A DNA stretch of 43,813 bases, from contig DAOUWZ010000008.1 in the NCBI GenBank assembly GCA_030666865.1, forward strand, positions 1 to 43,813. The letters are read 5' to 3'. Below are positions 17,742 through 39,198 of the stretch, piece by piece (the first letter of the stretch is position 1; each line of letters starts with the position of its first letter). The position numbers were made by a program, and so were the translations under genes. Source of the stretch: a bacterium. Its GTDB lineage: Bacteria > Patescibacteriota > Patescibacteriia > S139-126. The notes beneath the pieces were generated by a model that was not told where the DNA came from, ran no database searches, and saw nothing but the letters and a program-made list of their open reading frames with translations.

Positions 17742-18308
17742 TTATCCCTTTATATCAGGGTGTATATTTCGGGCGTACAAAAATAATTCACACAACTCCC
17801 TGATTGCTCCTTGACCGCCAGAATGAATGGTCACATAATCAGCCTTAACTATTACTCTAGAGTCAGCATCAGCCGTAGCTACTGACAAACCCACTAAATC
17901 AAAACAATGTAGATCATTTAAATCATTACCCATATACAAAACCTGCTCTTTTTTATAACCATAACGATTCATCTCTTCCTGTAGGGCTTCAGGTTTTTTA
18001 TAAGTTGATTGAGTACAAGTTAAGTGCAATTTTTTAGCAACACTGGCTACCACCAAACTTGTTTCTCTGGATAAAATTAACAATTTTAACTCAGTCTCTT
18101 TATTTGTCTTTCTGTCAATCAAGCCAGCGTCCTCCAATAAATCAAAACCTTGACTATCATAACGAGACCTCTTTACAACTTCAGTACCATCAGCTGAATG
18201 CCAAATACTATTATCAGTAAAAACTCCGTCAAAATCAAAAACTACAAACTTTACTTCAGCCAATTTTCTCTTTAGACTATTATCTAAATTTTCATACAAA
18301 TTTTTCAT
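17742..18308 (-). CDS. KdsC-like HAD phosphatase (nonulosonate 9-phosphate or KDO 8-phosphate type)
   Basis: The 188-residue protein belongs to the HAD family branch of KdsC. The nucleophile motif DFDGVFTD is at 25-32, a Ser in LILSRET near 75, a Lys in YKKPEAL near 100, the GNDLNDL motif near 125 and GGQGAIRELCEL near 165. The branch removes phosphate from 3-deoxy-octulosonate 8-phosphate, and related domains act on 9-phosphorylated sialic-like acids. No KDO synthesis gene is present, but NeuB and NeuA are close by. The likeliest substrate is therefore a nonulosonate 9-phosphate made by the neighbouring NeuB. It forms a two-gene unit with the cupin gene. Confidence 0.8.
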   Translation of the reverse strand: MKNLYENLDNSLKRKLAEVKFVVFDFDGVFTDNSIWHSADGTEVVKRSRYDSQGFDLLEDAGLIDRKTNKETELKLLILSRETSLVVASVAKKLHLTCTQSTYKKPEALQEEMNRYGYKKEQVLYMGNDLNDLHCFDLVGLSVATADADSRVIVKADYVTIHSGGQGAIRELCELFLYARNIHPDIKG

Positions 18309-18315
18309 ATGTTTA

Positions 18316-18690
18316 CTAATATTTAGTTAATAATAAATCAAACTCTTCTAGAGGCACTTGACCGCTGGGAACATCTCGATAACTATCTTTTTCTTCATGG
18401 TGAGTGGAAAATTCCATTATCTCACTATTTTGTAATCCGGTAAAGCGATGTTTGTCGCCTGATTTTATGTCGATTTTTTCTCCTGGATTCATAACCCACT
18501 CCCTATCTCCAACTTCCATCAAGACTTTGCCCTTCAAAATATAAAAAGTTTCTTCCTTATTTTTATGATAATGAATACTACAACGCCAACCTTTACTTAA
18601 TTTTAATAATTTACCACAATAATCTTTATTGGCAATCCACTGCTCCTCACCCCAAACTTTAGAATGTATTTCAATATTTTTATCTGTCAT
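18316..18690 (-). CDS. Cupin-domain protein
   Basis: The 124-residue protein is a single cupin barrel. The first motif is WRCSIHYHKNKEETFYILKG (about residues 35-54) with two His and one Glu, and the second is GEKIDIKSGDKHRFTG (about 68-83). These keep most of the usual metal ligands. The closest general type is the C-terminal domain of type II mannose-6-phosphate isomerase and small sugar isomerases. It is cotranscribed with the KdsC-like phosphatase (7-base gap). A role in sugar isomerisation for the nonulosonic-acid pathway is plausible but only inferred. Confidence 0.75.
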   Translation of the reverse strand: MTDKNIEIHSKVWGEEQWIANKDYCGKLLKLSKGWRCSIHYHKNKEETFYILKGKVLMEVGDREWVMNPGEKIDIKSGDKHRFTGLQNSEIMEFSTHHEEKDSYRDVPSGQVPLEEFDLLLTKY

Positions 18691-18712
18691 TTTATTCTTA
18701 ATTATATAATAT

Positions 18713-18741
18713 ATCTTAGCCTATAACACTATTAATGTAAA
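18713..18741 (-). promoter_or_regulatory. Promoter of the cupin-phosphatase unit
   Basis: On the minus strand TTTACA (18736-18741) and TAAGAT (18713-18718) are 17 bases apart. The cupin ATG is 22 bases further on. Confidence 0.5.
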
Positions 18742-18760
18742 TAATAATTCTACTTTGTGC

Positions 18761-18777
18761 TTGACAAATATTGTCAA
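18761..18777. promoter_or_regulatory. Palindrome TTGACAA-ATA-TTGTCAA in a divergent promoter
   Basis: A perfect 7-3-7 inverted repeat sits between the divergent cupin and isomerase genes. Its right half supplies the TTGTCA -35 box of the plus promoter. It could be an operator or simply back-to-back -35-like sequences. Confidence 0.5.
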
Positions 18778-18799
18778 TTATAACTTTTAGATATATAAT
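18771..18799 (+). promoter_or_regulatory. Promoter of the isomerase-neuB unit
   Basis: TTGTCA (18771-18776) and a perfect TATAAT (18794-18799) are separated by 17 bases. The ATG at 18829 lies 29 bases past the -10. Confidence 0.65.
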
Positions 18800-18828
18800 A
18801 ATAAAGTATAATATTATTAATTAAATCG

Positions 18829-19662
18829 ATGTTTATCGGAATATTACAGGGACGTTTGTCTCCATCACCCTCAGGATCATTACAAAACTTTCCAAAAGAT
18901 TGGGAAGCGGAATTTGCTATAGCTCAAAATATCGGTTTTACTGCTCTAGAATTGCTTTTCCCAAAAAATAATTACGATGATAGTCCGCTACTTTCCAGCC
19001 AAGGAATTAAAAAAATTATCAAACTAAAGAAAAAACATCAAATTAATACTCCGTCAATCTGCTGTGATTGTTTTATGAAAGGATTCTTATTCGGCTCAAA
19101 GGCAAAACCAAATGTTGAACTTCTCATCAAACTGCTTGGGCAAGCCAAAAAAATCAATTCCCAAAGATTAGTTTTGCCTTTTTTGGAAGATAGTGAACTA
19201 AATAATGAAACTAAAAAAAAGGAAGTTATATCCAACATGAATGCTATTACGAACAAAATAGCAGAATATGGAATTGAATTAGTCCTCGAAACCTCCCTGC
19301 CTGCGCCTGAACTTAAAGAGTTTATCAGCCAATTCACGAGCCCTCTTATTAAAGTCTGCTATGACATGGGCAACACTACGACTTTCTGGGGAGATAAGGT
19401 TGCTAATGATGTTATTAAGTTAGAAAATCTTATCACTAGCATTCATGTTAAAGACAGAAAATATGGCAGCAATACCTCCTATCCCCTTGGCGAAGGTGGA
19501 ACTGATTTTGAAGGTATTTTCAAATCCTTGAATAGTATAAAATACCAAGGTCCATTTATTATTGAAGCGGCTAGAGTATCAGGCAGAGATGAAATAATAA
19601 TGGCTCAAGAGTATTTAAAATTTACTAAAAATTTAATTAATAAATATTTAAATAATAATTAA
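18829..19662 (+). CDS. TIM-barrel sugar phosphate isomerase/epimerase
   Basis: The 277-residue protein resembles the xylose isomerase-like TIM-barrel family (AP-endonuclease family 2). It opens with IGILQGRLSPSP, as in UlaE-type hexulose/pentulose epimerases. Metal ligands appear in ALELLF (near 45), VLETS (near 154), YDMGN (near 183), SIHVKDR (near 206) and FIIEAA (near 243). It is 5 bases upstream of neuB and starts the plus-strand transcript. It may supply or rearrange a sugar precursor for NeuB, but the substrate cannot be assigned. Confidence 0.8.
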   Translation: MFIGILQGRLSPSPSGSLQNFPKDWEAEFAIAQNIGFTALELLFPKNNYDDSPLLSSQGIKKIIKLKKKHQINTPSICCDCFMKGFLFGSKAKPNVELLIKLLGQAKKINSQRLVLPFLEDSELNNETKKKEVISNMNAITNKIAEYGIELVLETSLPAPELKEFISQFTSPLIKVCYDMGNTTTFWGDKVANDVIKLENLITSIHVKDRKYGSNTSYPLGEGGTDFEGIFKSLNSIKYQGPFIIEAARVSGRDEIIMAQEYLKFTKNLINKYLNNN

Positions 19663-19667
19663 CCAAT

Positions 19668-20546
19668 ATGCATATCAATTTACATGATAAAAAAGTCGGG
19701 GATGATCACCCAATTTTTATTACAGCAGAAATTGGGATCAACCACAACGGAGATATTGAACTGGCTAAACAGCTAATTGACAAAGCAATTGATGCCGGAG
19801 CCAATGCAGTCAAATTTCAAAAAAGAACCATTGATACTGTTTACAATCCAGAAGAACTAGCCCGTCCGCGGGAAAATCCATTTGGCTCCACTAATGGCGA
19901 CTTAAAACGAGGCTTAGAATTTGGACAAAAAGAGTACGAAGAAATTGATCGCTACTGTAAAGAAAAAAAAATCCTATGGTATTCATCTTGTTGGGATGAA
20001 GATTCTGTTGACTTTATGGAACAATTCAATCCGCCGTGCTATAAAATTGCTTCTCCTAGTCTTACCGACCACAACCTACTAAAACACCATGTCAAATATA
20101 ATCGACCTATTATTATTTCTACCGGCATGAGTACTCTTGACGAAATTGACGCTGCTATTAAAATTCTCGACAAGAATAAATTAATTATTCTCCACTGCAC
20201 CAGTACTTACCCTTCAGAACCAAGAGAATTAAATCTTCGCACTATTAACTCGCTAAAAAAACGCTACAGCATACCTGTTGGTTACTCCGGTCACGAAGTA
20301 GGGCTGGCAACTTCTCTGGCTGCGGCTACCTTAGGTGCTTGTATGATTGAACGGCACATTACTCTAGATCGGGCAATGTGGGGTAGTGATCACGCTGCCT
20401 CTGTTGAACCAGGTGGTATTGCCCGCTTAATTAAGGATGTCCGTGCTATAGAGCAAGCTTTAGGCGACGGTGTTAAAAAAATTTATGATAGCGAAAAACC
20501 AATTATAGAAAAACTCAGACGTAAACACTATAAAGACAATAAATAA
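19668..20546 (+). CDS. neuB: NeuB-family nonulosonic acid synthase lacking the SAF domain
   Basis: NeuB enzymes join phosphoenolpyruvate to a hexosamine derivative, making sialic, legionaminic or pseudaminic acid (or a 9-phosphate). The barrel is intact: ITAEIGINHNGD near residue 19, NAVKFQKR near 45, SSCWD near 103, ISTGMST near 145, HCTSTYPS near 173, GYSGHEVG near 203 and the RHITLDR...GSDHAAS block near 228-245. At 292 residues it stops after the barrel. Family members near 340-350 residues carry a C-terminal SAF (antifreeze-like) domain that contacts the partner active site; it is absent here. The gene ends at a normal stop followed by a terminator, so this is not a sequencing artefact at an edge. 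Confidence 0.93.
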   Translation: MHINLHDKKVGDDHPIFITAEIGINHNGDIELAKQLIDKAIDAGANAVKFQKRTIDTVYNPEELARPRENPFGSTNGDLKRGLEFGQKEYEEIDRYCKEKKILWYSSCWDEDSVDFMEQFNPPCYKIASPSLTDHNLLKHHVKYNRPIIISTGMSTLDEIDAAIKILDKNKLIILHCTSTYPSEPRELNLRTINSLKKRYSIPVGYSGHEVGLATSLAAATLGACMIERHITLDRAMWGSDHAASVEPGGIARLIKDVRAIEQALGDGVKKIYDSEKPIIEKLRRKHYKDNK

Positions 20547-20559
20547 AATCTCTCAATAT

Positions 20560-20590
20560 AAAAAACCACCAATAAATTGGTGGTTTTTTT
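20560..20590. terminator. Hairpin terminator after neuB
   Basis: AAAAAACCACCAAT and TTGGTGGTTTTTTT pair around AAA, with a T-run after the plus-strand arm and an A-run before it. It serves neuB and, from the other strand, the remnant gene at 20599-20977. Confidence 0.9.
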
Positions 20591-20598
20591 GGATTTTA

Positions 20599-20977
20599 TT
20601 AACCCAAAATTCTCAATATTCCACTGCTAATCCTTTCAGCATTTTTACCGTCAGAATTGAAATGTTTTTCCTGTTGTCCAATAAAAAAACTATTTGATGA
20701 TAAAAATTAACGGAATGTTTTTCTGATTAGCTTCCAACGATAGTTGGTTTTCTAAATTAATTGGCGCGCCCAACGTAGATACGACCATATCAACATCCTG
20801 TGGTAAACAATTGACTATTTCAGGATTAAATCCCGCCTGTTTCCATAAATCAAATGTCACCCCTTCTGGATCAGCAATAATAGTTAAATCATATTCAGAT
20901 CGCAAAAGTTTGGCGACTGGCATAGCTACTTGAAAACCGCCTTTGTCTTTAGTGACGAATAATATATTATTTTTCAA
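20599..20977 (-). pseudogene. Internally deleted glycosyltransferase/epimerase-like gene remnant
   Basis: The N-terminal part (95 codons, TTG start at 20977) opens with NILFVTKDKGGFQVAMPVAK and runs through VVSTLGAPINLENQ, like the first Rossmann half of a GT-B glycosyltransferase or sugar 2-epimerase. It stops at 20690. In the next frame the strand then reads SFFIGQQEKHFNSDG followed by KNAERISSGILRILG and a stop at 20599-20601, like the extreme C-terminus of such a protein. About 200-300 residues of the middle seem to be lost, with a frame change at about 20690. A strong TAGGAGGAGG ribosome site lies just upstream. The start and end survive; the enzyme is almost surely inactive. Confidence 0.65.
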
Positions 20978-20980
20978 AAT

Positions 20981-20990
20981 CCTCCTCCTA
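20981..20990 (-). promoter_or_regulatory. Strong Shine-Dalgarno before the TTG-started remnant gene
   Basis: TAGGAGGAGG on the minus strand with a 6-base spacer to TTG. It is the clearest Shine-Dalgarno in the window and decides the TTG start. A possible -35 (TTGACA, 21068-21073) lies further upstream with a weak -10. Confidence 0.6.
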
Positions 20991-21075
20991 TTATTAATTA
21001 TTACCCTGTAATTTGTTATTTTTAATGTAATGCAAATTTCGGTATATTGTTACACAAAAAACATAAATGTCAAGG

Positions 21076-21104
21076 TTGATAAAAAACTGACTGTTTAGTA
21101 TACT
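21076..21104 (+). promoter_or_regulatory. Promoter of the neuA-SDR-Gfo/Idh operon
   Basis: TTGATA (21076-21081) and TATACT (21099-21104) are separated by 17 bases. The ATG at 21124 follows after 19 bases, so the leader is very short. Confidence 0.7.
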
Positions 21105-21123
21105 AGATAAAGATTATTAAACT

Positions 21124-21876
21124 ATGTCCAAAAATAAAACCGTTATCATTATCCCAGCGAGGGGTGGATCTAAATCAATTCACAAAAAAAATCTCCACCC
21201 AATTTTAGGCAAACCACTTGTTGTCTGGACTATTGAATCTGCTCTTGACTCTCAGCTAGCTGATCGAGTTATTGTCTCGACTGATGATAAAGAAATAGCT
21301 AATGTAGCTAAAAAACATGGGGCTGAAATTCCTTTTCTGCGCCCCAAAGAATTAGCCGAAGATGATGTGCCAGATTTACCTGTTTTCCAACATGCTTTGA
21401 ATTGGCTAAAGAAAAACGAAAATTATATTCCAGATTTTATTGTGCATCTTTGGCCTACTTCACCATTGCGAGAATATGGTAGTATTGATGAAGCAATCAG
21501 ACTATTGGAAAAAACACCAGGGACTGATGCCGTTCGTTCGGTAACACTAGCGCAAGAAACTCCTTTCAAAATGTGGCGTCTTGATAAAGGCAAATTCCTT
21601 CATCCTATACTTAAGGCTGAATACCAAGACTTATACCAAAAAAATGAAACCAGCGAACCTCACACCTTGCCCCGGCAACAACTACCACCTATTTATGTGC
21701 AAACAGGATATCTATCTGTTATTCGTTATCAGACAATTATGAAAATGAATTCCATGCAGGGAAAAAATATTCTGCCCTATATACACGATCCCGAAAACTA
21801 TACCGAACTGGATTCACATAAAGACCTTTTTTACACTAAACACATTTTAAAAAATTATTTAAATGATAAAAAATAA
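21124..21876 (+). CDS. neuA: Acylneuraminate cytidylyltransferase (CMP-nonulosonate synthetase)
   Basis: NeuA activates a nonulosonic acid with CTP to its CMP form. The 250-residue protein has the signature IPARGGSKSIHKKN (10-23), the VSTDDKEIA motif near 57, and LWPTSPLRE near 109 with DAIRLLE-like helix after it (here EAIRLLE). Later it has the PRQQLPPIYVQTGYLSVIRY segment. No phosphatase domain is fused to it, which fits the separate KdsC-like enzyme at 17742-18308. It is first in a three-gene operon and the SDR starts 2 bases after its stop. Confidence 0.92.
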   Translation: MSKNKTVIIIPARGGSKSIHKKNLHPILGKPLVVWTIESALDSQLADRVIVSTDDKEIANVAKKHGAEIPFLRPKELAEDDVPDLPVFQHALNWLKKNENYIPDFIVHLWPTSPLREYGSIDEAIRLLEKTPGTDAVRSVTLAQETPFKMWRLDKGKFLHPILKAEYQDLYQKNETSEPHTLPRQQLPPIYVQTGYLSVIRYQTIMKMNSMQGKNILPYIHDPENYTELDSHKDLFYTKHILKNYLNDKK

Positions 21877-26791: not shown

Positions 26792-27601
26792 TTAAATTTT
26801 AATACTTTCTAGTGTTTTATAAACACTAACTACAGATTCAGATAAATCATTTACATCAATATCAGCACAGTTAGAAAGTTTATTTCTATTTAGATCTGGC
26901 TTAAGATATTTCATTGGATGGTCAGTGTATTCCGCTTCTAAATATTTTGATATAGTAGCTAACTTTTCCTGTGATAAATTTGGATCCATTAAATCTTCAT
27001 ATTTAACCAAAATACCACCTTTACTAATTACGTGAAAAATTAAATCTAGATTTGATTCTTTCCAATATTCCAATAACTGACTAAAAGTATCACCATTATA
27101 TAATATTTTGGAATGAGAAACACAACAAGACACAGGATTTCTATAAACAGCTATAAGTTTATTATTACTAAGAATTTTGGATAAAAAATAAGCCAACTGC
27201 GGTGTTGTCTTCATACCAAACTTACCACTATTAGATAAACCCTCTAACTGAGCAACTAACTTATTTCTATATATTACTCGCTTTATTCTATTTAAGAAAC
27301 CTTTAGCACGAAAACTATTTAATCCAAAATAATATGATCTCTCAATCTTGGCTTGATTCATGAGTTTATTAAGAATAAAACCAATTTTTTTATTTTCATA
27401 AAAACCTAACGGATTGATATCGCTTGGTTTTTTTAATTCTTCTTTACTTCCAAAATTATAACCACAAAGACTAACTAATAACGAAACTATACTAGTGCCA
27501 CTTCTTGGAAAGCCAATAATAAGACAAGATGAATTACTACTTCTAACCTCTTTATTTATAAAAGAAATTTTCCAAATGTTTTTTAAAAGTCTACTAACCA
27601 T
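26792..27601 (-). CDS. Sulfotransferase family protein
   Basis: The 269-residue protein has the P-loop-like PAPS-binding motif GFPRSGTS (30-37), preceded by a hydrophobic strand, as in carbohydrate sulfotransferases. A 3'-phosphate-binding region of the form AVYRNPVSCCVSH appears near residues 150-162. Later it has ILVKYEDLMDPN near 200, again family-typical. It would move a sulfo group from PAPS to a hydroxyl or amine, likely on a sugar. The CysD and CysNC genes that would make PAPS are in the same strand run at 36473-39198. No signal peptide or membrane helix is obvious, so sulfation is probably cytoplasmic, before export. Confidence 0.85.
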   Translation of the reverse strand: MVSRLLKNIWKISFINKEVRSSNSSCLIIGFPRSGTSIVSLLVSLCGYNFGSKEELKKPSDINPLGFYENKKIGFILNKLMNQAKIERSYYFGLNSFRAKGFLNRIKRVIYRNKLVAQLEGLSNSGKFGMKTTPQLAYFLSKILSNNKLIAVYRNPVSCCVSHSKILYNGDTFSQLLEYWKESNLDLIFHVISKGGILVKYEDLMDPNLSQEKLATISKYLEAEYTDHPMKYLKPDLNRNKLSNCADIDVNDLSESVVSVYKTLESIKI

Positions 27602-27615
27602 TTATCATTTTTTAA

Positions 27616-28146
27616 TTATCTTATTTTAATTTTGGCAGGTATGCCATATGCAACACTATTATCCGGCACACTTTTATTACAGAGAGTTAGAGCCCCCACA
27701 ATAACATCATTTCCAATTTTTATATCCCCAACTATTTTTGATCCTGTAGATAAAACAACATTATTACCTATAACAGGCATGGATTTACCGCCATTTACTT
27801 CCTTGAAACCAATTGTAACACCATTAAATATAGTAACATTCCTACCTATTTTCACTCTACCTCCGATAACAATATCAATTAAATGAACCAATCTTAATCC
27901 AGGTCCAATTTCAGCAATATAAGATATGTCATTAGAAAAAATATATTGACGAATCACCCCCAATAGCATGGCTCCAGGAATTTTTTTTTGATAAAGATAT
28001 CTGTTAAACCTATACCAAAAAACACAGGCAAAACCTGGGTAAAAAATAAGTGCAAATATAATATGCTTGAAGATAACAATTTTCTTAGAATTTATATTTA
28101 CATCTACTTTATGAATTTTTAAATCATATATTAAATAATTCCACAT
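27616..28146 (-). CDS. Hexapeptide-repeat (CysE/LbetaH) O-acetyltransferase
   Basis: The 176-residue protein has a hydrophobic N-terminal part (about 25-45) and a left-handed beta-helix from about residue 80. Repeats such as IGGRVKIGRNVTIFNGVTIG, VIGNNVVLSTGSKIVGDIKIG and NDVIVGALTLCNKSVPDNSVAYG follow the V/I-G-x4 pattern. It resembles serine O-acetyltransferase but is far shorter and has a membrane-like start, like colanic-acid acetyltransferases. In a polysaccharide locus acetylation of a sugar is the more likely role. It sits between the sulfotransferase and the flippase. Confidence 0.8.
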   Translation of the reverse strand: MWNYLIYDLKIHKVDVNINSKKIVIFKHIIFALIFYPGFACVFWYRFNRYLYQKKIPGAMLLGVIRQYIFSNDISYIAEIGPGLRLVHLIDIVIGGRVKIGRNVTIFNGVTIGFKEVNGGKSMPVIGNNVVLSTGSKIVGDIKIGNDVIVGALTLCNKSVPDNSVAYGIPAKIKIR

Positions 28147-28209
28147 AAACTTTAATCAAAATCTATTACATTATACAATAAACAATAAAATAGTCAAAAT
28201 ATTTATGAA

Positions 28210-29598
28210 TTACTTCTTAATAAAAATAATTCTATTAAGAATCTTCTTTGCCAGCCTAATATCAAATTTATCTAATACAATCAGATTATTCCAATTTATT
28301 TTAAACTCAGAAGCAATTCTACTGATATTATGATTACGTAATAACACATAGCAATAAATTGTTATCACATATTCTATTGCCGAACCAATAACCCCTATAA
28401 ATGGTATTAATAATAAACTTAGTAAAATTATCATAATATTTTTGACTAAAGTCAAAAAAAACATATCTTTCTGCCTTTGCATAGCATTATAAATAGGGGT
28501 CTGTAAAAGTAATAGAGAGATAGCAGGCATAGCAATCAATAACACTCTAAATACATATATTGAATCCAAATACCTCGGAAATATTATCGCGACAATCCAA
28601 GGAACAACAAAAGCGCTAACTACACCTACTAGTATAAATATAATCAAACTATATTTAAAACTTCTATTTAATATCTGGCCAATTTTTATCTTATACTTAA
28701 ATTCTCGTGGGAATATTTGTGCTAAAACATCTTTTATTGGCAGTAGTGAAATTAAATGGTTGTAAAAACTCTGAGCTACTGAAAAAATAGCCACCATCTC
28801 TACATTCAAAAAATATGCAATAAACCATGGACGTATTTTCTTGGTAAAATCACCAAAGTAATTTGTTAGTAACGCCCATTTGCCATGATTTTTTATAATT
28901 TGCCAAAAATAATTTCCTGGCGACCTCTTCTGTTTCAATAAATATAACCCTACTTTTATCAAAAATGGACCAAAAATTATCAAAGATATTAGGTGATAAA
29001 TCAGTTCTGCATAAATTACTCCTTTAATACCAAAATCAAATAACCACACCAACACTATCACTAATCCCAAATTAATATAGCTCTCCGAAACGCTCCAATT
29101 AACCAAATATTTGAACTTTAAATGAGTTTTAAAAATTGTCGTATATAATGTTCTTAATGGTGTGATAAGAATTATAAAAGAAAATAATTTTATGTACGGT
29201 AAAACTGAATTGTCATAATATAGCCCAATCAAATCAGTACCAAAAAATAGCAGTGCCCAAAAAACAATTGCTAGTAAACAAACTGATTTGATATAGCCAA
29301 TAAGTAACGCTTTATAAACATCTGTTTTACCTTCTCCTTTAATGCGATTTAAATCTGCTGTCACTACTTCGCTGATTCCCATAGTAACTAGGCCATTAAA
29401 AAAATATACAGCTGTAATAGTCAAAGAAAGCAATCCGTAATGAAAAACTGATAGAAATCTTATTTTTATCAATGAAGTAGCGAACCCAGAAAATTTATTG
29501 ACAATACTGCCGGCTGAATACATCGCCACACCTTCACCAATAATATGAGTTAAACTTTTATTATCTTGATTTTTATTATCCTTATCCATTATTGACAA
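28210..29598 (-). CDS. Polysaccharide flippase (Wzx/RfbX type)
   Basis: The 462-residue protein is almost entirely membrane helix (about 12-14 segments), with the N-terminal pattern GEGVAMYSAGSIVNKFSGF...RFLSVFHYGLLSL typical of the MVF/MATE-like polysaccharide export family. It moves lipid-linked oligosaccharide units across the cytoplasmic membrane. Its start overlaps the upstream glycosyltransferase stop by 17 bases, so the two are translationally coupled. It supports export of the glycan made by this locus. No polymerase of Wzy type is obvious in the window. Confidence 0.88.
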   Translation of the reverse strand: MSIMDKDNKNQDNKSLTHIIGEGVAMYSAGSIVNKFSGFATSLIKIRFLSVFHYGLLSLTITAVYFFNGLVTMGISEVVTADLNRIKGEGKTDVYKALLIGYIKSVCLLAIVFWALLFFGTDLIGLYYDNSVLPYIKLFSFIILITPLRTLYTTIFKTHLKFKYLVNWSVSESYINLGLVIVLVWLFDFGIKGVIYAELIYHLISLIIFGPFLIKVGLYLLKQKRSPGNYFWQIIKNHGKWALLTNYFGDFTKKIRPWFIAYFLNVEMVAIFSVAQSFYNHLISLLPIKDVLAQIFPREFKYKIKIGQILNRSFKYSLIIFILVGVVSAFVVPWIVAIIFPRYLDSIYVFRVLLIAMPAISLLLLQTPIYNAMQRQKDMFFLTLVKNIMIILLSLLLIPFIGVIGSAIEYVITIYCYVLLRNHNISRIASEFKINWNNLIVLDKFDIRLAKKILNRIIFIKK

Positions 29599-30724
29599 AA
29601 TTTATAATTCTTTTTATTCTATTTTCCCAAGTATATTTTTGCACATCTTGAAAGGCTTGCTCTGCTAAACTATAACTTTCATTTTTATTTTCAATTGCAA
29701 ATTTAATTTTTTCTGCTAAATCACCAGAATTATCCGCTTCAAATAAATATGCATTATTTTCATTCAATATTTCTGTTATTGAAGGAATATTACTAGCAAT
29801 TACTGGTCTTTTACTCGCCATATATTCAAATAATTTCATTGGCGAGGTATAATACTTTGAAATATCTTCTCTAGCAGTATTTGGTAAAATTAATAAATCA
29901 GCGGCTTTTTGCCAATATGGTATTTCACTATGATTTACATAACCGATAATTACAATATTTTTTTTAGTTTCATACTTTTGTTTAAATTTTTCTATATCAT
30001 CATCAGTCCCACCAACAAATACCAATTTTATATTATCAGATAATAAATCAGCTACCTGTGCCATAGTATCAACTCCTTTCCAACCGTATAAATGACCAGT
30101 ATACACAGCATAATATAAATTCTTGTCTAAATTAAGTTTCTCTCTTGCTTCTACTTGACTAATATTGATATCTATTTCATCTATATCAACTGCATTTGGT
30201 TCATAAAATAACTTTTCATCAGGTAATTCAAATATTTCTTTAATTTTAGCTAATTTCCACTTATTAGTCACTATTAATCCTTTTAGATTTTTAAACAACG
30301 TTTTATAAAAATTTTTCTTTTTTTCAGGAAAATCATGAACTTCATAATAACATTTATCAAAAACAAAAGAAGAAATTAATAATGGTAATGATTCATTTGA
30401 ATAAATTATATCTTTTCTATTAGCTTTAAATAAAAAATAAATCAGAACTGATAAAGAAAAAAATAAACAACTTACATAAAAACTAAGATTACTAAAAATT
30501 CTAAAAGGAAATAAATCAATAGTTGGTAAATAAACTACTTTGAAATTATTTTTTAAATTGTAATAATCTGAATAATCTTGTTTAACACGAAATAAACGCC
30601 TAGGCGCTAATAAAACAACTTCTAAATTATTATCAGCAAAAACCTCGCAACTTTTAGCTACGAATAATGAAGCGGCCTTTTCTGAAGGAAATCTGCCATG
30701 GAATATCAAAAATAATTTATTCAT
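29582..30724 (-). CDS. Family 4 (GT-B) glycosyltransferase
   Basis: The 380-residue protein has an N-terminal acceptor domain starting MNKLFLIFHGRFPSEKAASL and a C-terminal donor domain. The donor domain carries YTGHLYGWKGVDTMAQ near residue 215, the VIIGYVNHSEIPYWQKAADLLILPN segment near 260-285, and the EX7E-type motif in SPMKLFEYMASKRPVIASNIPSI near 300. It ends with LAEQAFQDVQKYTWENRIKRI. It likely adds a sugar to the lipid-linked unit. Donor and linkage cannot be told. It is coupled to the flippase and 5 bases after a methyltransferase gene. Confidence 0.88.
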   Translation of the reverse strand: MNKLFLIFHGRFPSEKAASLFVAKSCEVFADNNLEVVLLAPRRLFRVKQDYSDYYNLKNNFKVVYLPTIDLFPFRIFSNLSFYVSCLFFSLSVLIYFLFKANRKDIIYSNESLPLLISSFVFDKCYYEVHDFPEKKKNFYKTLFKNLKGLIVTNKWKLAKIKEIFELPDEKLFYEPNAVDIDEIDINISQVEAREKLNLDKNLYYAVYTGHLYGWKGVDTMAQVADLLSDNIKLVFVGGTDDDIEKFKQKYETKKNIVIIGYVNHSEIPYWQKAADLLILPNTAREDISKYYTSPMKLFEYMASKRPVIASNIPSITEILNENNAYLFEADNSGDLAEKIKFAIENKNESYSLAEQAFQDVQKYTWENRIKRIINFVNNG

Positions 30725-30728
30725 AAAC

Positions 30729-31352
30729 TTACTTTTTTAATATAAAAAAATGATGATAAGGAGAATCAAACGCAATATAATCTTTCTCAATATGAAACCC
30801 TGATTTTAGAATATCTTTTTTTATTAACTTTAAAGGATACTCCTTTTTACCGATTTCCCAAAAATGTTCTCCTTTCATATTGTGTTTTCTACTTAGAATA
30901 TTAATTTTTTTCTGCCATTTTATTTTTTTGAAAAATGGAATCCTTACTTGCAAAGAAAAATGTCTTCCCCAGTGAGGCAAACTTAGTATAACTTTATTAT
31001 TAGTAACTCTATGTAGTTCACTTAAAGCTTTGGAAAACTTCTCATAAGGCAAATGTTCAAGCACTTCGGCGCAAACAATCACATCAAAATTATCATCTGG
31101 TAAAGGAATTTCTAAAACACTCCCAACAATATCCGGATTAATATTTTTATTAATATCCAAAGTAACAACTTCGTGACCAAAATGACTTAATAAATTGGTA
31201 ACAATTTTATTTCCACATCCGATTTCCAAACATTTTATACTATTTCCAATCTCTGATACTTCTTTTATTTGACACCAATAATCCATCCACCTTTCTTCAT
31301 CTAGGTAAGTAGGATTGAAATAATCATTATAATTTTTATTTTGTTCTGGCAT
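30729..31352 (-). CDS. Class I SAM-dependent methyltransferase
   Basis: The 207-residue protein has motif I CLEIGCGNKIVTNLL near residue 43, a VVTLDINK acidic loop near 60-70, and the FDVIVCAEVLEHLPYEKFSKAL motif near 88-108. An HRVTNNKVILSLPHWGRHFSL post-motif follows. It likely methylates a sugar or small acceptor. The gap to the next glycosyltransferase gene is 4 bases, and the gap from the upstream GT2 gene is 5 bases. Confidence 0.82.
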   Translation of the reverse strand: MPEQNKNYNDYFNPTYLDEERWMDYWCQIKEVSEIGNSIKCLEIGCGNKIVTNLLSHFGHEVVTLDINKNINPDIVGSVLEIPLPDDNFDVIVCAEVLEHLPYEKFSKALSELHRVTNNKVILSLPHWGRHFSLQVRIPFFKKIKWQKKINILSRKHNMKGEHFWEIGKKEYPLKLIKKDILKSGFHIEKDYIAFDSPYHHFFILKK

Positions 31353-31357
31353 TAAAT

Positions 31358-32179
31358 TTATTTAAAAATATTTTTTAAATATTTAATAAAAATAATTTTC
31401 ATAATAAACAATTGCGAATAAATCCTAAACATTTCATAACGCAATGGAATATTCTCATCTTTTTTATATTTAATTCTACAATAAATAATTTTTATCAAAT
31501 ATTTTAGAATTGATTTTAAGGGATCAATAACACCTTTCTTAAAAAATTGAAAAAAATTTTTACTATTATATTCCAATATCATTCTTGTCAACCTATATTT
31601 AACCTTACTTTGATAATCTTTAAAACTTAAATTAATATCCAACGGCACATACCACGGTGAATCAATCTTCCCGATTTTGCAGTCTAATTTTTCAATATTA
31701 ATCCTTTCATGCATTTTTTTAACAAATCTTGCGCCGCTTTTCTTATTAAAAAATCTTGACTGGTAATAAGTTTTATATTGCTTTAATATTTTTCCAGTAT
31801 CTTTATTTGTCAGATAATAAGCGACATTGTAAACTAAAAATTTTTCACTGCTTTCTTCAGATATTCTTTTTATCTCATTCTTCAATTCTTCAGACATTAT
31901 TTCATCAGAATCCAAATAAAAAAACCAATTATAAGCAGCTGCGTCAAGCATTCGATTTCTCTCCAAAGCAAAATCGTCAATCGGAGTATTTAATTTGCTT
32001 TGCTGAATAATCTTACATCCGAACCTTTTTGCAATCTGCAAGGTATTATCACTGCTTCCCCCGTCTGAAATGATAATTTCACAAAAACCTCTAAGACTTT
32101 CCAAACATTTTCCCAAAGTTTTACCGGAATTATAAGTCAATACTCCTATACTCGCTTTTATACACTTATTTTTTTCCAT
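31358..32179 (-). CDS. Family 2 glycosyltransferase (WaaE/KdtX-like)
   Basis: The 273-residue protein has the GT-A start IGVLTYNSGKTLGKCLESL, the IIISDGGSSDNTL strand near residue 34, ERNRMLDAA near 72, and the metal-binding LDSDEIMSEEL near 90. These fit the lipopolysaccharide-core GT2 group. A basic, aromatic C-terminus may touch the membrane. It probably extends the polysaccharide unit. Its start overlaps the deacetylase stop by 22 bases, a large overlap, so a slightly later Met is possible but none is near. Confidence 0.85.
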   Translation of the reverse strand: MEKNKCIKASIGVLTYNSGKTLGKCLESLRGFCEIIISDGGSSDNTLQIAKRFGCKIIQQSKLNTPIDDFALERNRMLDAAAYNWFFYLDSDEIMSEELKNEIKRISEESSEKFLVYNVAYYLTNKDTGKILKQYKTYYQSRFFNKKSGARFVKKMHERINIEKLDCKIGKIDSPWYVPLDINLSFKDYQSKVKYRLTRMILEYNSKNFFQFFKKGVIDPLKSILKYLIKIIYCRIKYKKDENIPLRYEMFRIYSQLFIMKIIFIKYLKNIFK

Positions 32180-32961
32180 ATTTTCTTTCTTATAAAATCT
32201 ATAAACTTTCTATTTAAATCAACGGCTTTGGTTAATCTCATTTTAAACAGACAAAAATTCATAGTTCTGTCAATTTGTGTTCTTTTAATATTAAATAAAT
32301 CATCACCTTTATTAATCAAACCTTCGTTTATTGTAAAAGCCGCCTTAAAATCTGATTTTTTTATAAATTCAACAACCTTGTCATTCTTATGGCCAAAGGC
32401 ATAAGCCATATATTTAGGTGTTATGCTTAACTTTTCTGCAATAATATTTCTGCAATACAAAACCTCTTCTGCTAGTTTATCTTGATTGTCAATAATATTT
32501 TTCAAATTCAGATGATTGTGTCCATGTACTTGAAAACTGACTAAACCGCTGTCTGACATCTCTTTGATTTGTTCCCAGTTCAATCTTGGTAAATTTTTTG
32601 ATTTGGCAGTTGATTCCAAATTAGTTGTTAAAAAAATTGTGATTGGAAAATTAAATTTTTTAACCAAAGGAAACACATTGTAATACATAGATTCAAAACC
32701 ATCATCAAAAGTCAAAGCAATAGATTTTTTATCTAATATCGTTTCTCCTTTTACATACTTTACCACATCATCCAATTTCACTATTTTATAATTTCTAATC
32801 AAATAACCAATTTGTTTATTAAAATCTTTTATATTCACATTCAGCTTCCAATCTGAATCATCAATTGAATGATACATTAACACACCAATATCATTACTTT
32901 TGATAAATTTACTAATAATAAAAAAAAATTTATATATTATTTTTTTTATTATTTTATTCAT
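32158..32961 (-). CDS. Polysaccharide deacetylase (NodB-type)
   Basis: The 267-residue protein has a hydrophobic N-terminal helix (about 8-20) that may anchor it. The NodB catalytic motifs are TFDDG (84-88) and HGHNH (146-150), with the two His and the second Asp as likely metal ligands. A later YMAYAFGHKNDKVVE motif near 205 replaces the common YPFG. NodB enzymes remove acetyl groups from N-acetylhexosamines. Its action would give free amines on the glycan or wall, which could also be targets for N-sulfation. It overlaps its neighbours on both sides, so it is translationally coupled. Confidence 0.85.
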   Translation of the reverse strand: MNKIIKKIIYKFFFIISKFIKSNDIGVLMYHSIDDSDWKLNVNIKDFNKQIGYLIRNYKIVKLDDVVKYVKGETILDKKSIALTFDDGFESMYYNVFPLVKKFNFPITIFLTTNLESTAKSKNLPRLNWEQIKEMSDSGLVSFQVHGHNHLNLKNIIDNQDKLAEEVLYCRNIIAEKLSITPKYMAYAFGHKNDKVVEFIKKSDFKAAFTINEGLINKGDDLFNIKRTQIDRTMNFCLFKMRLTKAVDLNRKFIDFIRKKIWKKISV

Positions 32962-33547
32962 TTAACATCTCTAAATTATTTTTACTACTATTAAAAAATA
33001 CTACCTGAGACTCAAAATTTTCCTGTAAAAAATCAAATAAAATATCATAATTCTCCTTAATTGTGCTTCTCCAATTATTGTCATCAATTATTATGCTTTC
33101 ACGAGCAAAATAACCTCTTTTACTAATCCTGTCATCCCATTCTCTATCATTAATTCGAAACATGACAACTTTACCTGATTTTGGCAAAAATTTGATATAT
33201 CTTTCAATCGTCTTTATATTTATTCTTTTATCAAAAATAGATAACAAATTTTGCCAATGACCCTGATCAATAATCACTCTTTCCTTCCCCGCTGCTTTGA
33301 TATATTTGGCATTACTTTGAAAATAACAATTCATCAGTTTATAATAAAAAATCTTCCATGACAATGAATATTTTACTATATAATAAAAAGTTATCATACA
33401 AAAAAATGGATTTTTTATAAAAAAAATCAAATTATAAAATAACAATTCCTTATTATTATCAACTATGATTATTTGATAGCCATAATCTTTTTGTAATTTT
33501 TTTGCCGTAGTCGTTTTACCGCTGGCTGGCAAACCAAAAAATTCCAT
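32954..33547 (-). CDS. Small P-loop kinase-like protein of unknown substrate
   Basis: The 197-residue protein begins MEFFGLPASGKTTTAKKL, with a Walker A GLPASGKT at 5-12 right at the N-terminus. A later VIIDQGHWQ (about residues 110-118) could be the Walker B or substrate motif of the thymidylate/shikimate-kinase group. A stretch near 45-75 is hydrophobic and aromatic, which is unusual. It overlaps the deacetylase gene by 8 bases and lies 3 bases after a methyltransferase. It may phosphorylate a sugar or lipid carrier, but no function can be named. Confidence 0.6.
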   Translation of the reverse strand: MEFFGLPASGKTTTAKKLQKDYGYQIIIVDNNKELLFYNLIFFIKNPFFCMITFYYIVKYSLSWKIFYYKLMNCYFQSNAKYIKAAGKERVIIDQGHWQNLLSIFDKRINIKTIERYIKFLPKSGKVVMFRINDREWDDRISKRGYFARESIIIDDNNWRSTIKENYDILFDFLQENFESQVVFFNSSKNNLEMLNE

Positions 33548-33550
33548 TTA

Positions 33551-34273
33551 TTATTTTCTAAATTTGATTAGATATGATTCTGAAAAAAACTTACTAACAA
33601 AATTCAATTCAAATTTTTCCAAAAATCTATATAATAATTTACTCAACCAAACCGAACTAAAAAAAGGAAAATTGACTGTTACCGGATATAATTTTATATC
33701 CTTAAAATTATTTTCTAATAATATTTTTTTCATTTCTTTTGGACTTATTTGACCCTTATGAATATCAGATATTTTCCTACCTAATATTTTATTTCTCAAA
33801 TTTTTAGGTGTTTTGGTAATAATTATTCCTATACCATCATCAGCTAATAATTTATATATTTTTTCAATAACTATTTTTTTATCTTTCATATACTCAATAG
33901 CCCGCGAGGAAAAAAATAAATCATATTTTTTATCCAAAAAAACTCCTGTAAAATCACCATCAATATATTCGTTAACAATCGAACCAAATCTATCCTTAGC
34001 AATTCCCAACATTTCCTTTGAAATATCAACCAAACTAAAATTTCCTTTATCATTTTTATCGATAAAAATTTTAGTCCATGTGCCAGGTCCTGGCCCAACT
34101 TCCAAATAATTAGAAAAAATAATATCTTTACTATGTTTTAAAATTGATCTTAATGTCATTTCATAGCCTGCTTTTTTCAATGGCGTTTCCAACCAACGTT
34201 TATATTCATACTCATATTTATATTTATTTTTTACAACATCGTTATAAAAATTTTTTATATCATTATGTTTCAT
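33551..34273 (-). CDS. Class I SAM-dependent methyltransferase
   Basis: The 240-residue protein has motif I YLEVGPGPGTWTKIFID near residue 53, SLVDISKEMLGIAKDRFG near 77, YDLFFSSRAIEYMKDKK near 116, and the LLADDGIGIIITKTPKNL post-motif near 143. The C-terminal end is hydrophobic (VNFPFFSSVWLSKLLYRF). It likely methylates a sugar of the glycan. Its start overlaps the upstream glycosyltransferase stop by 4 bases. Confidence 0.85.
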   Translation of the reverse strand: MKHNDIKNFYNDVVKNKYKYEYEYKRWLETPLKKAGYEMTLRSILKHSKDIIFSNYLEVGPGPGTWTKIFIDKNDKGNFSLVDISKEMLGIAKDRFGSIVNEYIDGDFTGVFLDKKYDLFFSSRAIEYMKDKKIVIEKIYKLLADDGIGIIITKTPKNLRNKILGRKISDIHKGQISPKEMKKILLENNFKDIKLYPVTVNFPFFSSVWLSKLLYRFLEKFELNFVSKFFSESYLIKFRK

Positions 34274-35283
34274 ATTTTGTTTATTGAATCAATAATTTTC
34301 TTTATCAAAGAATCTAAACTATGATTATTTATTATTTCCGCTCTAGAATTTTTATTAAAATCATTTAATAGAAGCAATGCTGTGCTTTCTACCTTAGAAA
34401 TATCAGATACAAAACATTCACTTGGAACTATATTTTCAAACGCTTCGTTGGTCGTAACTACTGGAATATTGCAAGCCATCGCTTCTAACACCGCTTTATC
34501 TAAACTTCCTGTCTTGCTTAAATTGATAAATAAATCAGCTTGTTGATAATACTGCAAAACATTTAAATGAGGCATTGATCCTTTTAATACAACTTTATCT
34601 TCTAATAAATTATCTCTTAAATATCCGTTAACCTTATTAAAATATTTTTTATCTTCCTTGTATATCGGACCGCCCACAATGATAAATTTCAATTCAGGAA
34701 TCTTTTTAATAAGATTTTGATATATTTTTATCATTTCTAAAATCTGCTTAGTGGCTGAAAATCTACCTACTGAAAGCAAAATCTTTCCTCTTGTATTTTT
34801 CTCTGCTGGTTTGAATATTTCTGTATTAATTCCATGACCCATTACATACAATTTTTTACTTGGCAATCTAAAACTTTTTTCTGAAGCAGTGAAGATTATA
34901 TGAACTAATTTTTCGGCTATTCGCAACTTCCAATCAACATTTTTATGGGTGTACCATAAACTAATCCTTTTTTTCCACATTCTCCATAATAATCCTCCTA
35001 ATATTACATACTCCGTATTCATATGAACAAAAACTCTATCGTAATTATTTTTCTCTTTTAAAATATTTCTGTAAAATCTATACAGATATTTTAATTTTGA
35101 CTTTCCTGATTCTTTACCCAATGAAACAACTTTAACATTTTCTGGTAACCTATAATCCCCTTTGTACAAACAAATCACGGTTATTTCTTCACAAAAATTA
35201 CTAAACATACTCAGCCATTCATGAAAAAAGCTAAGATTATCATCTTTAATATCTACAACTTGTGTGATTATCAATAATTTCAT
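34270..35283 (-). CDS. Family 4 (GT-B) glycosyltransferase
   Basis: The 337-residue protein starts MKLLIITQVVDIKDDNLSFF, typical of the acceptor domain. The donor domain has GKILLSVGRFSATKQILEMI near residue 165, the KLKFIIVGGP-like strand (here ELKFIIVGGP) near 194, and YQQADLFINLSKTGSLDKAVLEAMACNIPVVTT near 246-278 with the EX7E pattern. It likely adds a hexose to the glycan. It begins directly after the AbrB-like gene stop (adjacent bases 35283/35284), so that gene and this one form a tight unit. Confidence 0.88.
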   Translation of the reverse strand: MKLLIITQVVDIKDDNLSFFHEWLSMFSNFCEEITVICLYKGDYRLPENVKVVSLGKESGKSKLKYLYRFYRNILKEKNNYDRVFVHMNTEYVILGGLLWRMWKKRISLWYTHKNVDWKLRIAEKLVHIIFTASEKSFRLPSKKLYVMGHGINTEIFKPAEKNTRGKILLSVGRFSATKQILEMIKIYQNLIKKIPELKFIIVGGPIYKEDKKYFNKVNGYLRDNLLEDKVVLKGSMPHLNVLQYYQQADLFINLSKTGSLDKAVLEAMACNIPVVTTNEAFENIVPSECFVSDISKVESTALLLLNDFNKNSRAEIINNHSLDSLIKKIIDSINKI

Positions 35284-35487
35284 TTATTTTTTTCTGGGGT
35301 TTTTAGAGACTGGCCAATCTTTAATAATTATTCTTTTTCTTCTTCTGTCTAATTCAACGACCAATTTTTGTTTGCCCTTCCATTTTAATTCTCGAATAAA
35401 CTCAACTGGCAGGGTCAAGCGATAGCTACCGCGCATAGTTTTTAACAATTTACGAATGTTTCTTAATTGAATTTTTGTTCTAGCCAT
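35284..35487 (-). CDS. AbrB/SpoVT-like swapped-hairpin DNA-binding protein
   Basis: I take the ATG at 35487 as the start, giving 67 residues (MARTKIQLRNIRKLLKTMRG...). A GTG at 35529 would start inside a perfect palindrome. The segment GSYRLTLPVEFIRELKWKGK (residues about 20-39) then KLVVELDRRRKRIIIKDW resembles the AbrB fold, seen in transition-state regulators and in antitoxins. It is very basic. No toxin gene lies next to it: the following gene is a glycosyltransferase and the upstream gene a methyltransferase. A DNA-binding switch for the polysaccharide operon is the best guess. Confidence 0.65.
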   Translation of the reverse strand: MARTKIQLRNIRKLLKTMRGSYRLTLPVEFIRELKWKGKQKLVVELDRRRKRIIIKDWPVSKNPRKK

Positions 35488-35493
35488 ATTATT

Positions 35494-35529
35494 ATGATTT
35501 ATCGTGTGATTAATCGTACGATTAATCAC
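35494..35529. promoter_or_regulatory. Operator-like array of three 12-base half-sites
   Basis: Positions 35506-35529 are a perfect 24-base palindrome: GTGATTAATCGT joined to ACGATTAATCAC. Immediately after it on the minus strand is a third half, ACGATAAATCAT (35494-35505), differing at two positions. The array ends 6 bases before the ATG at 35487. Such tight sites next to a small DNA-binding gene suggest autoregulation. Confidence 0.7.
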
Positions 35530-36472: not shown

Positions 36473-38293
36473 TCAAATAAATAATTTTAATTTATTCTTT
36501 ATAAATTTCGTCACTTTATCAACCGCTTCATCTACAGACAACTTGTCTGTTTTAACTTCTAAATCCGGAGTTTTTGGCTGCTCATAGACATTATCAATAC
36601 CAGTAAAATTAACAATTTCTCCTTGTCTGACTTTTTTATAAAGACCTTTCACATCCCGTTGTTCACAAACTGCCAAAGACGCATTAATATATATTTCATA
36701 AAAATTATCAAATTTATTTTTAAATTCTTCTCGTTTAAATTTGCAAGGAGATATTAAAGCAACAATCACTACTACACCGTGCTTACTCAACATATTTGCC
36801 AAGAATCCAGCTATTTCCATATTTTTTAACCTATCCTCTTTACTAAATCCTAAATGATTATTTAAATTCTGACGAATAACATCGCCATCCAAAATTTCAC
36901 AATCAATGCCTTTAGTTTGTAAATTATCAAAAACTTTGTTAGCGATAGTGCTTTTACCAGAGCCCGATAAACCAGTCAGCCATAAAATTGCCCCTTTTTT
37001 CTTTACTGAACTGGCAATATCTTCATTGGCATATTTTTTATCCTTAATAATTACACCAGCGGCTACGGTATTATTACTAATTTCATCAATTAGAATAAAA
37101 TTACCCAGATTTTTGTTTTGAATATAAGGATCAAATAATATTTCTTCGTTAGTATTAATAATAACTCTGCCAATTTCATTCAAATGCAAAGTCTTGGCTT
37201 TTTTTCTATGTAAATTATCAGTATTAATTCTATACCTCAAAACATCCAGTGAACAACGGATCTCTTTACTAGTGTGTTTCAAAATATAAGTCCTACTTAA
37301 ATCTAAAGGTCGTTTGTCTAACCAACAAAGACTAGCTTCAAAACGACTAGCTATACGTGGTAAATTATCTTGTCTAACTACTATATCACCCCGACTAATA
37401 TCAATATTATCCTGCAAAGAAAAAACTATGCTTTGCCCAGCTGAAGCTTCCTTGACTTGATTTAAACCGAGAATAATAGATTTAACTATACTTTTTTGTC
37501 GAGAAGGTAGAATCATTATTTCTTCCCCTTTTCTGAAAACCCCACTTTCTACTAAACCAGCATAATATCGATGATCTTGATCTGGTCTTAAAATTATCTG
37601 AACAGGTAAACGAAAATCAATTAGATTTCTCTCACTAACCACTTGAATATTTTCTAAATAATCCAATAAAATCCAGCCTTTATACCACGGCATCTTGCCG
37701 GTACTTTTGGTAACCATTTCTCCTTTTAAAGCTGAAATAGGTATAAAAGTTAAGTTGGAAATATTAAGTTTTATAGAAAATTCTACAAAATCTCTTTTTA
37801 TTTTATCATAAACAGCTTGGCTATAATCAACCAAATCCATCTTATTTATCACAATCGCTACATGCTGAAGACCTAAAAGACTGGCAATAAATAAATGCCG
37901 TTTTGACTGTCTTAGAAGCCCCTTTCTAGCATCTACCAATATCAAAGCTACTTGAGCGTTAGAAGCTCCGGTTACCATGTTTCTGGTATATTGTTCATGT
38001 CCAGGAACATCAGCAATAATATATTTTCTCTTATCAGTAGAAAAATAGCGATAAGCAACATCAATCGTAATTCCTTGTTCCTGTTCAGCGCTTAAGCCAT
38101 CTAACAGAAAAGCAAAATCTAAATCTTCTCCCCCATTTTTCTTTCTTATCTTTTCTAAAAGTTCTAACTGATCACTGTAAATAGCATTACATTCGTAAAG
38201 CAAACGACCAATTAAGGTTGACTTACCGTCATCAACACTGCCAGCCGTAGTTAAACGCACTAATTCTTTATTTTTCATCTTATTTTCTTCCAT
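36473..38293 (-). CDS. cysNC: CysN-CysC fusion: sulfate adenylyltransferase GTPase subunit and adenylylsulfate kinase
   Basis: The 606-residue protein has two enzymes. The N-terminal half is the CysN GTPase, with G1 GSVDDGKST (18-26), DVPGHEQYTRN (G3) near 94 and NKMDLV (G4) near 149. EF-Tu-like beta-barrels follow to about 430. The C-terminal APS kinase (about 432-606) has Walker A GLSGSGKS (441-448), ILDGDVIRQ near 470, RDVKGLYKK near 546 and FTGIDNVYEQP near 563. With CysD it turns sulfate, ATP and GTP into APS and then PAPS. Its ATG overlaps the CysD stop by one base (TAATG). It matches bifunctional NodQ-type enzymes, which often serve sulfated glycans. Confidence 0.95.
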   Translation of the reverse strand: MEENKMKNKELVRLTTAGSVDDGKSTLIGRLLYECNAIYSDQLELLEKIRKKNGGEDLDFAFLLDGLSAEQEQGITIDVAYRYFSTDKRKYIIADVPGHEQYTRNMVTGASNAQVALILVDARKGLLRQSKRHLFIASLLGLQHVAIVINKMDLVDYSQAVYDKIKRDFVEFSIKLNISNLTFIPISALKGEMVTKSTGKMPWYKGWILLDYLENIQVVSERNLIDFRLPVQIILRPDQDHRYYAGLVESGVFRKGEEIMILPSRQKSIVKSIILGLNQVKEASAGQSIVFSLQDNIDISRGDIVVRQDNLPRIASRFEASLCWLDKRPLDLSRTYILKHTSKEIRCSLDVLRYRINTDNLHRKKAKTLHLNEIGRVIINTNEEILFDPYIQNKNLGNFILIDEISNNTVAAGVIIKDKKYANEDIASSVKKKGAILWLTGLSGSGKSTIANKVFDNLQTKGIDCEILDGDVIRQNLNNHLGFSKEDRLKNMEIAGFLANMLSKHGVVVIVALISPCKFKREEFKNKFDNFYEIYINASLAVCEQRDVKGLYKKVRQGEIVNFTGIDNVYEQPKTPDLEVKTDKLSVDEAVDKVTKFIKNKLKLFI

Positions 38294-39198
38294 TAAAAAT
38301 AGCCTTCCCGTTTTTTATCTTCCATTGCAGAAAGTGAATTATTATCAATAACTCTATTTTGCCTTTCTGATATTTTTTCTTTTTCTAATTCCTTAATAAT
38401 ACTGTCCAAATCTTTGGCTGAGGAAAAAATTGCTCCAGTAGACGGCGCACAACCTAAAGTCCTAAACCGCGCCATTCTAGAAAACACCTTTTCTCCTTTC
38501 TGAGGCTGAACATGATCTCCAACTTGCAAATAAACGCCATTACGCTCAATCAAATCCATTTGTTGCGCAAAATAAAGCGGAACCATTTCTATTTTTTCTC
38601 TCTTAATATATTGCCAAATATCCATTTCTATCCAATTGGAAAGAGGGAAAACACGCACACCCTCTCCTTTTTTTATTCTAGTATTGTATGTATGCCACAA
38701 TTCTGGTCTTTGATTTTTAGGATCCCAGATACCCTCTTGATTACGATAAGAAAAAAATCTTTCTTTGGCCCTAGACTTCTCTTCATCACGCCTAGCACCG
38801 CCAATAGCGACATCAAACTCATGCTTTCTTAAAATTTCCAATAGGGGCTTAGTCTTTTTATAATATATATATTCCTCACTTCCGGCATCTTCTGATCTAA
38901 AGGACATAGCTTGAGACTCAGTATTTTGATGAACAATTAATTCAACACCAATCTTCTTAGTATAATAATCTCTAAATTCTATCATCTCTTTAAACTTATA
39001 ACCGGTATCAATATGCAAAAACGGAAAAGGAATCTTACCGGGATAAAAAGCCTTATAAGCTAAATGTAGCAATACCGAAGAATCTTTACCAATAGAATAA
39101 AGCATTACTGGATTATTAAATTCAGCAGCCACTTCTCTTAAAATATGGATACTTTCGGACTCCAAAAAATCTAAATACTCTATATTATAATCACTCAT
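38293..39198 (-). CDS. cysD: Sulfate adenylyltransferase catalytic subunit CysD
   Basis: The 301-residue PP-loop enzyme forms APS from sulfate and ATP. It has the pyrophosphate loop SIGKDSS (35-41), LHIDTGYKFKEMIEFRD near 72-88, GGARRDEEKSRAKER near 138-152, and RVFPLSNWIEMDIW near 198. The terminus REGYF is also CysD-like. The gene is one base from the CysNC start and 4 bases after a glycosyltransferase stop, so it is embedded in the polysaccharide operon. No sulfite or PAPS reductase gene is in the window, so the product is probably used for sulfation rather than for cysteine. Confidence 0.96.
   Translation of the reverse strand: MSDYNIEYLDFLESESIHILREVAAEFNNPVMLYSIGKDSSVLLHLAYKAFYPGKIPFPFLHIDTGYKFKEMIEFRDYYTKKIGVELIVHQNTESQAMSFRSEDAGSEEYIYYKKTKPLLEILRKHEFDVAIGGARRDEEKSRAKERFFSYRNQEGIWDPKNQRPELWHTYNTRIKKGEGVRVFPLSNWIEMDIWQYIKREKIEMVPLYFAQQMDLIERNGVYLQVGDHVQPQKGEKVFSRMARFRTLGCAPSTGAIFSSAKDLDSIIKELEKEKISERQNRVIDNNSLSAMEDKKREGYF

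Follow-up and report, generated by a model that had tools for sequence, protein, structure and literature searches.

The window analysed here, a stretch of 43,813 nucleotides (43.8 kb) from a bacterium of the Patescibacteriota (contig DAOUWZ010000008.1 of assembly GCA_030666865.1), carries a polysaccharide locus in which the gene for a small protein with a predicted AbrB/MazE fold, P0001 (35284..35487, minus strand), is preceded by an array of 12-bp units and followed without a gap by a glycosyltransferase gene. A preliminary description, made from the sequence, had proposed that this protein could be an autoregulated switch for the downstream glycan genes or an orphan antitoxin recruited as a regulator. 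Our analysis goes beyond that description in showing that such arrays are general in a protein family, that their 12-bp period is constant, that their sequence co-varies with the protein and that copies of them are dispersed in the genome.

Results

Upstream of P0001, the preliminary description had reported a perfect 24-base palindrome and a third adjacent half-site, and both are indeed present. The palindrome, GTGATTAATCGTACGATTAATCAC (35506-35529), is the only perfect palindrome of at least 24 nt across the window, and no palindrome of this length was found in shuffled windows. The third element, ATGATTTATCGT (35494-35505), agrees with the half-site at 10 of 12 positions. A better reading of these "half-sites" is as a row of three 12-bp units, near-palindromic in themselves, with the sequences GATTAATC, GATTAATC and GATAAATC in gene orientation. 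Unit 1, which is distal to the gene (GTGATTAATCGT; 35518..35529, minus strand), and unit 2 (ACGATTAATCAC; 35506..35517, minus strand) form the two arms of the palindrome, and the ATG-proximal unit 3 (ACGATAAATCAT; 35494..35505, minus strand) follows unit 2 in direct register at a distance of 12 bp. Paralogues likewise show the arrangement X,X',X' with the ATG next to the third unit. A multi-arm palindromic operator of the kind expected for an autoregulated MazE-like gene is found at the promoter of P0001 itself. Rfam and tRNA scans of the window gave no matches.

P0001 has 67 residues and is basic when translated from the ATG at 35487, and a start at the GTG at 35529 is unlikely because homologues align from the position of this ATG, as the preliminary description had preferred. 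The match of P0001 to PF04014 scores 24.5 bits, 0.2 under the curated cut-off of 24.7, and 59 of 62 family members match the same Pfam family (E<=0.01). A profile built from 62 relatives matches the PDB chains of AbrB, SpoVT and MazE, a phmmer search of PDB sequences with P0001 alone gave no meaningful match, and NCBIfam and PADLOC gave no match. In the predicted model, which has a predicted local distance difference test (pLDDT) score of 83.5, the top 20 Foldseek matches are AbrB, SpoVT, MazE or their archaeal relatives, with probabilities of up to 0.99 and E-values of 0.2 or weaker, the latter due to the short chain. On the superfamily profile and the predicted swapped-hairpin fold, we regard the assignment of P0001 as AbrB-like, which had been suggested before, as sound. 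Two features of a type II antitoxin are missing: there is no disordered C-terminal toxin-binding tail, as P0001 ends in a 9-residue basic tail and most family members stop within a few residues of a conserved DW motif, and the adjacent gene is the glycosyltransferase gene in place of a cognate toxin gene.

A search across relatives and the class identified family members in 33 of 381 genomes, with a patchy distribution and up to nine members per genome. For 65 non-redundant upstream regions, the self-match at each offset was scored against dinucleotide shuffles. At an offset of 12, the mean z was 3.21, and z exceeded 3 in 38 of the 65 regions; the highest mean z at any other offset was 0.87 (at 24, the harmonic), with values of -0.16 to 0.67 elsewhere. 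Upstream regions of neighbouring genes (n=107) had a mean z of 0.27 at offset 12, none of them above 3, and those of other AbrB/MazE (PF04014) genes of the same class (n=16) had a mean z of 0.53 with a single case above 3. When inverted units were allowed, 36 of 63 members lay above the 99% level of the shuffled sequences. Many arrays consist of direct repeats of non-palindromic units, such as AATTCAGTAGTT, present three times at L114, and AAATCCTTGAAT at L074. The three-unit array of P0001 is thus one instance of a family-wide array with a 12-bp period. The single PF04014 gene with z above 3 belongs to a genuine MazE-MazF pair (L160, genome G134), whose operator upstream of the ATG, GTATATACTTATGTATATAC, also has 12-bp-spaced units; this pair may connect the toxin-free family with toxin-antitoxin modules.

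The arrays end at a median distance of 9 nt from the ATG and therefore lie within the leader. In 12 of 36 members, an exact TATAAT lies in the interval from 31 nt upstream to 3 nt downstream of the array start, compared with an expected number that we estimate at about two. A position of this kind is suggestive of repression.

The genome to which the window belongs (G000; 1.09 Mb in 55 contigs) encodes six family members. Its size and gene content seem similar to those of candidate-phyla bacteria. The GATTAATC palindrome is absent from the five members besides P0001, but immediately upstream of the ATG of each lies a separate array, made of two or three 12-bp-spaced units and differing in sequence: TTACGTA for two members and GGTATGTTCA, CTCTAGAG and AATTACNTA for the others. 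The search of genome contigs found one relative only, L001 from another assembly, which has a four-unit array. Across the family, protein identity and operator similarity are correlated (Mantel test, Spearman r 0.378, a value reached by 0 of 2000 permutations). Among cross-genome pairs with a protein identity of at least 65%, 58% share a unit at 11/12 positions or better, compared with 1% of pairs below 45% identity, and no paralogues within a genome that are less than 65% identical share units. Each subfamily therefore has a private unit sequence, which varies together with the protein. The preliminary description had let its reading depend on conservation of the half-sites in relatives with the same gene; the architecture is conserved and the sequence is subfamily-specific, and the reading withstands this comparison. 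Columns 8, 10, 17, 18, 20, 29 and 45 of P0001 track the operator, and those that do so after overall identity has been regressed out include positions 17, 18 and 20, in the loop after the first strand. As the influence of phylogeny is incompletely removed, these columns are a lead and not a proof.

The join between the regulator and glycosyltransferase genes, which had already been pointed out, is exact: the stop codon of P0001 extends to 35284, and the ATG of the glycosyltransferase gene (34270..35283, minus strand) lies at 35283. In G002, a genome from another genus of the same family, the order regulator, glycosyltransferase, methyltransferase is kept. The glycosyltransferases are 50% identical, the third gene is similar to the methyltransferase gene of the window (33551..34273, minus strand) as judged by reading both sequences, and the orthologous regulator has its own three-unit array, ATAATTTATTAT ATAATTAATTAT ATAATTAATTTT, with an ATTAAT core in common with the array in the window. 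This conserved order and array favour the proposed role as an autoregulated switch for glycan genes. The map of open reading frames shows further tightly packed genes on the minus strand (27616..33547), which overlap or are separated by short gaps and encode kinase-like and deacetylase-like proteins, glycosyltransferases, and flippase-like and acetyltransferase-like proteins; these are presumably part of the same transcript as P0001. Other family members precede unrelated genes, coding for an RlmH-type SPOUT methyltransferase (four times; L068, L115, L065 and L128, in four different genomes), a nuclease (three times), TspO (twice) and others. Among the 25 Pfam families listed, out of 37, for the genes downstream of the 65 members, none was a toxin family.

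The preliminary description had also called for a genome search for sites before other genes. The pattern TGATTAATCGTACGATTAATCA has five matches in G000, of which four are exact and one contains a mismatch; every match is intergenic, and the palindrome with its unit 1 thus recurs at four places besides the P0001 promoter. The reversed control pattern had no match in G000, and TGATTAATCGTACGATTAATCA itself had none in 56 relatives. One of the extra sites lies upstream of a thymidylate kinase-like gene, 17 bp from its ATG, another about 280 bp before a valyl-tRNA-synthetase-like gene, and two lie before tRNA-Met genes and before a GIY-YIG gene, respectively. Their flanks are unrelated, with about 22-36 bp in common, and at three sites the outer arms are complementary and differ in sequence. 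Altogether, four operator types are dispersed in G000, and reversed control patterns gave no matches. Arrays of the TTACGTA type are present in all five searched genomes with that protein subfamily and in G326, whereas 24 others lack them. Those of the TGGTATGTTCA type were detected in G000 and G126, both of which encode the cognate member, and a single time in G326, but in no genome among 11 others. In G000, five places carry CTCTAGAG arrays. In G326, TTACGTA copies adjoin the arrays of other paralogues upstream of clpC-like and radA-like genes.

Several further observations were made on these repeats. At L150, L152, L153, L155 and L156 of G326, TTACGTA palindromes stand beside GGGGCCCC, GATGCATC, GCTCCGGAGC and CGTACGTACG arrays in single intergenic regions, with a period of 11 bp in the GGGGCCCC array. 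One intergenic region, at L002:1354-1522, combines an array of three TTACGTA units with a GATTAATC palindrome, as if it were a target common to two paralogues. Two TTACGTA sites (L107:~1440-1522 and L139:~1460-1550) have a similar 48-bp flank holding a promoter-like TTGACY-17-TAATAW element, one of which points into the 3' end of recA and possibly belongs to an unannotated small RNA or gene. Matches to the half-site TAATTAATCGT near contig ends were discarded, as they belong to a shared repeat that breaks the assembly and is unrelated to the operator. Many G000 contigs start or end in this same sequence of about 140 bp (the first ~140 bases of L036, L041, L042, L050 and L056 and the last ~140 of L048 and L049), which has a GC-rich hairpin, CCCCGTCAGCTTGCTGCGGGG, and looks like an IS200/IS605-type end.

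Elsewhere in the polysaccharide locus, CysD-like and CysN/C-like fusion genes for sulfate activation and a sulfotransferase-like gene were recognised by eye (36473-39198 and 26792-27601), suggesting that the locus may make a sulfated glycan. Likewise, phosphatase, NeuB-like synthase and NeuA-like cytidylyltransferase genes (17742-21876), also assigned by eye, suggest nonulosonic acid synthesis.

Discussion

Based on these findings, we propose that P0001 is a toxin-free regulator with an AbrB/MazE fold, dimers of which would occupy GATTAATC/GATTAATC/GATAAATC between the promoter and its own start codon. We consider it very probable that dimers bind the adjacent 12-bp units over the promoter and leader and repress their own operon, and autoregulation by P0001 is strongly inferred. 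Side-by-side occupancy of the array would block initiation or early elongation, and P0001 would in this way repress, rather than activate, its own gene and the polysaccharide operon headed by it, a case of negative autoregulation. Every other family member would act likewise through a private unit read by its N-terminal strand-loop, and paralogues in one genome would therefore be free of cross-talk. The isolated copies of two or three units elsewhere could be additional binding places of the same protein, some of them at promoters (those of the thymidylate kinase-like gene, alaS, prmC and trmD), a role that is less certain than that of the arrays before the regulator genes.

Some observations weigh against this proposal. 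In the direct 12-bp test, z is 2 or lower in 19 of the 65 members, most of which still appear palindromic by eye, and the promoter in the window has a weak match to a sigma-70-like -10/-35. Nine TTACGTA matches are present in G326, where no cognate member was detected; the position of one match is within a glycosyltransferase gene. Among the placed dispersed copies in G000, about one third lie between convergent genes and one is inside a gene; the dispersed copies are therefore not simply a promoter regulon, and they may have a regulatory or a structural role or have spread in part as repeats.

The copies between convergent genes and inside genes might also indicate that the palindromes are small mobile or amplified repeats, which by chance stand before abrB genes and have no regulatory function at their dispersed positions. 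The G326 copies adjoin REP-like repeats, and complementary outer arms of differing sequence, as seen at three extra sites, would also fit. We nevertheless think this improbable, since only the short common stretch is shared between unrelated flanks, orthologous regulators in different genomes are preceded by units that follow the protein subfamily, and the 12-bp period is constant despite wholly different sequences. A further explanation starts from the position of the arrays in the leader: palindrome hairpins over the start region of the mRNA could control translation, with or without the protein. This is very improbable, as many arrays are direct repeats of non-palindromic units, which form no hairpin, copies occur in convergent intergenic regions, and AbrB-fold proteins bind double-stranded DNA.

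Somewhat more weight, though still well short of favoured, is due to the idea that P0001 is the DNA-binding remnant of a MazEF/VapBC-type module that has lost its toxin, and that it retains antitoxin-style autoregulation with no regulatory job for the glycan genes. It shares its Pfam family and predicted fold with MazE, the three-arm operator of Escherichia coli mazEF is autoregulatory, and the MazE-MazF pair at L160 has 12-bp-spaced units as well. However, no toxin was recognised beside the 65 members within the Pfam families covered, and toxin loss would therefore have to be ancient and shared; moreover, the regulator and glycosyltransferase genes stay in the same order in different genera, and the regulator has dispersed extra sites. 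As an account of origin, this idea is compatible with repression of the operon by P0001, and an orphan antitoxin recruited as a regulator, the second possibility raised in the preliminary description, also fits because members lack a recognised toxin neighbour, whereas ordinary AbrB genes of the class adjoin toxins.

Recognised transcription factors seem to be few in small-genome bacteria of this kind, most of which have not been cultured, and very little is therefore known of their regulatory logic. The family probably amounts to a set of private switches working in parallel, with a protein-to-DNA code that can be read. Going further, one might speculate, with about even odds in our judgement, that this toxin-free MazE/AbrB branch is the transcription-factor toolkit of some very small genomes, with at least four orthogonal pairs in 1.09 Mb and private 12-bp arrays that are dispersed and sometimes stacked within a single intergenic region. 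A few N-terminal strand-loop residues would set the unit, in what would amount to a naturally occurring code for DNA recognition by the swapped-hairpin fold. With an array of its own before each regulator, sequence is enough to read the operators, and regulons might be predicted without experiments on the organism. In addition, the family offers dozens of natural protein-operator pairs for testing AbrB-fold specificity. We found no literature naming AbrB together with Patescibacteria or the candidate phyla radiation, or dealing with 12-bp arrays of AbrB proteins, in a search to which subscription journals did not contribute.

P0001 is predicted to share the fold of the N-terminal DNA-binding domain of Bacillus AbrB and SpoVT, but it lacks a C-terminal multimerisation or sensor domain. 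AbrB is described as binding varied DNA sequences, and DNA recognition by the fold is termed elusive (PMC4022651), whereas each member of the P0001 family is paired with a sharply defined, specific unit. Other PF04014 genes of the class, namely VapB/MazE genes with toxins and regulators before ABC/HlyD operons, are similar in Pfam family, small size and position at the head of operons, but 15 of 16 lack a 12-bp array and many adjoin PIN, RelE or MazF toxins. Among known systems, the closest is E. coli mazEF with its alternating palindrome, in which three related arms over the promoter mediate autoregulation (PMC4803016). By analogy, P0001 would resemble MazE in its fold, as the product of the first gene of its operon and in an operator of three related arms of the autoregulatory type. 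In contrast to mazEF, no MazF-type toxin follows P0001, and the arms in the P0001 family keep a strict 12-bp period, which was absent when the region upstream of E. coli mazE was tested, in an operator that is private to each paralogue and recurs elsewhere in the genome. What is new compared with MazE/AbrB autoregulation is therefore a toxin-free regulator with a fixed 12-bp array, present as several orthogonal systems per genome.
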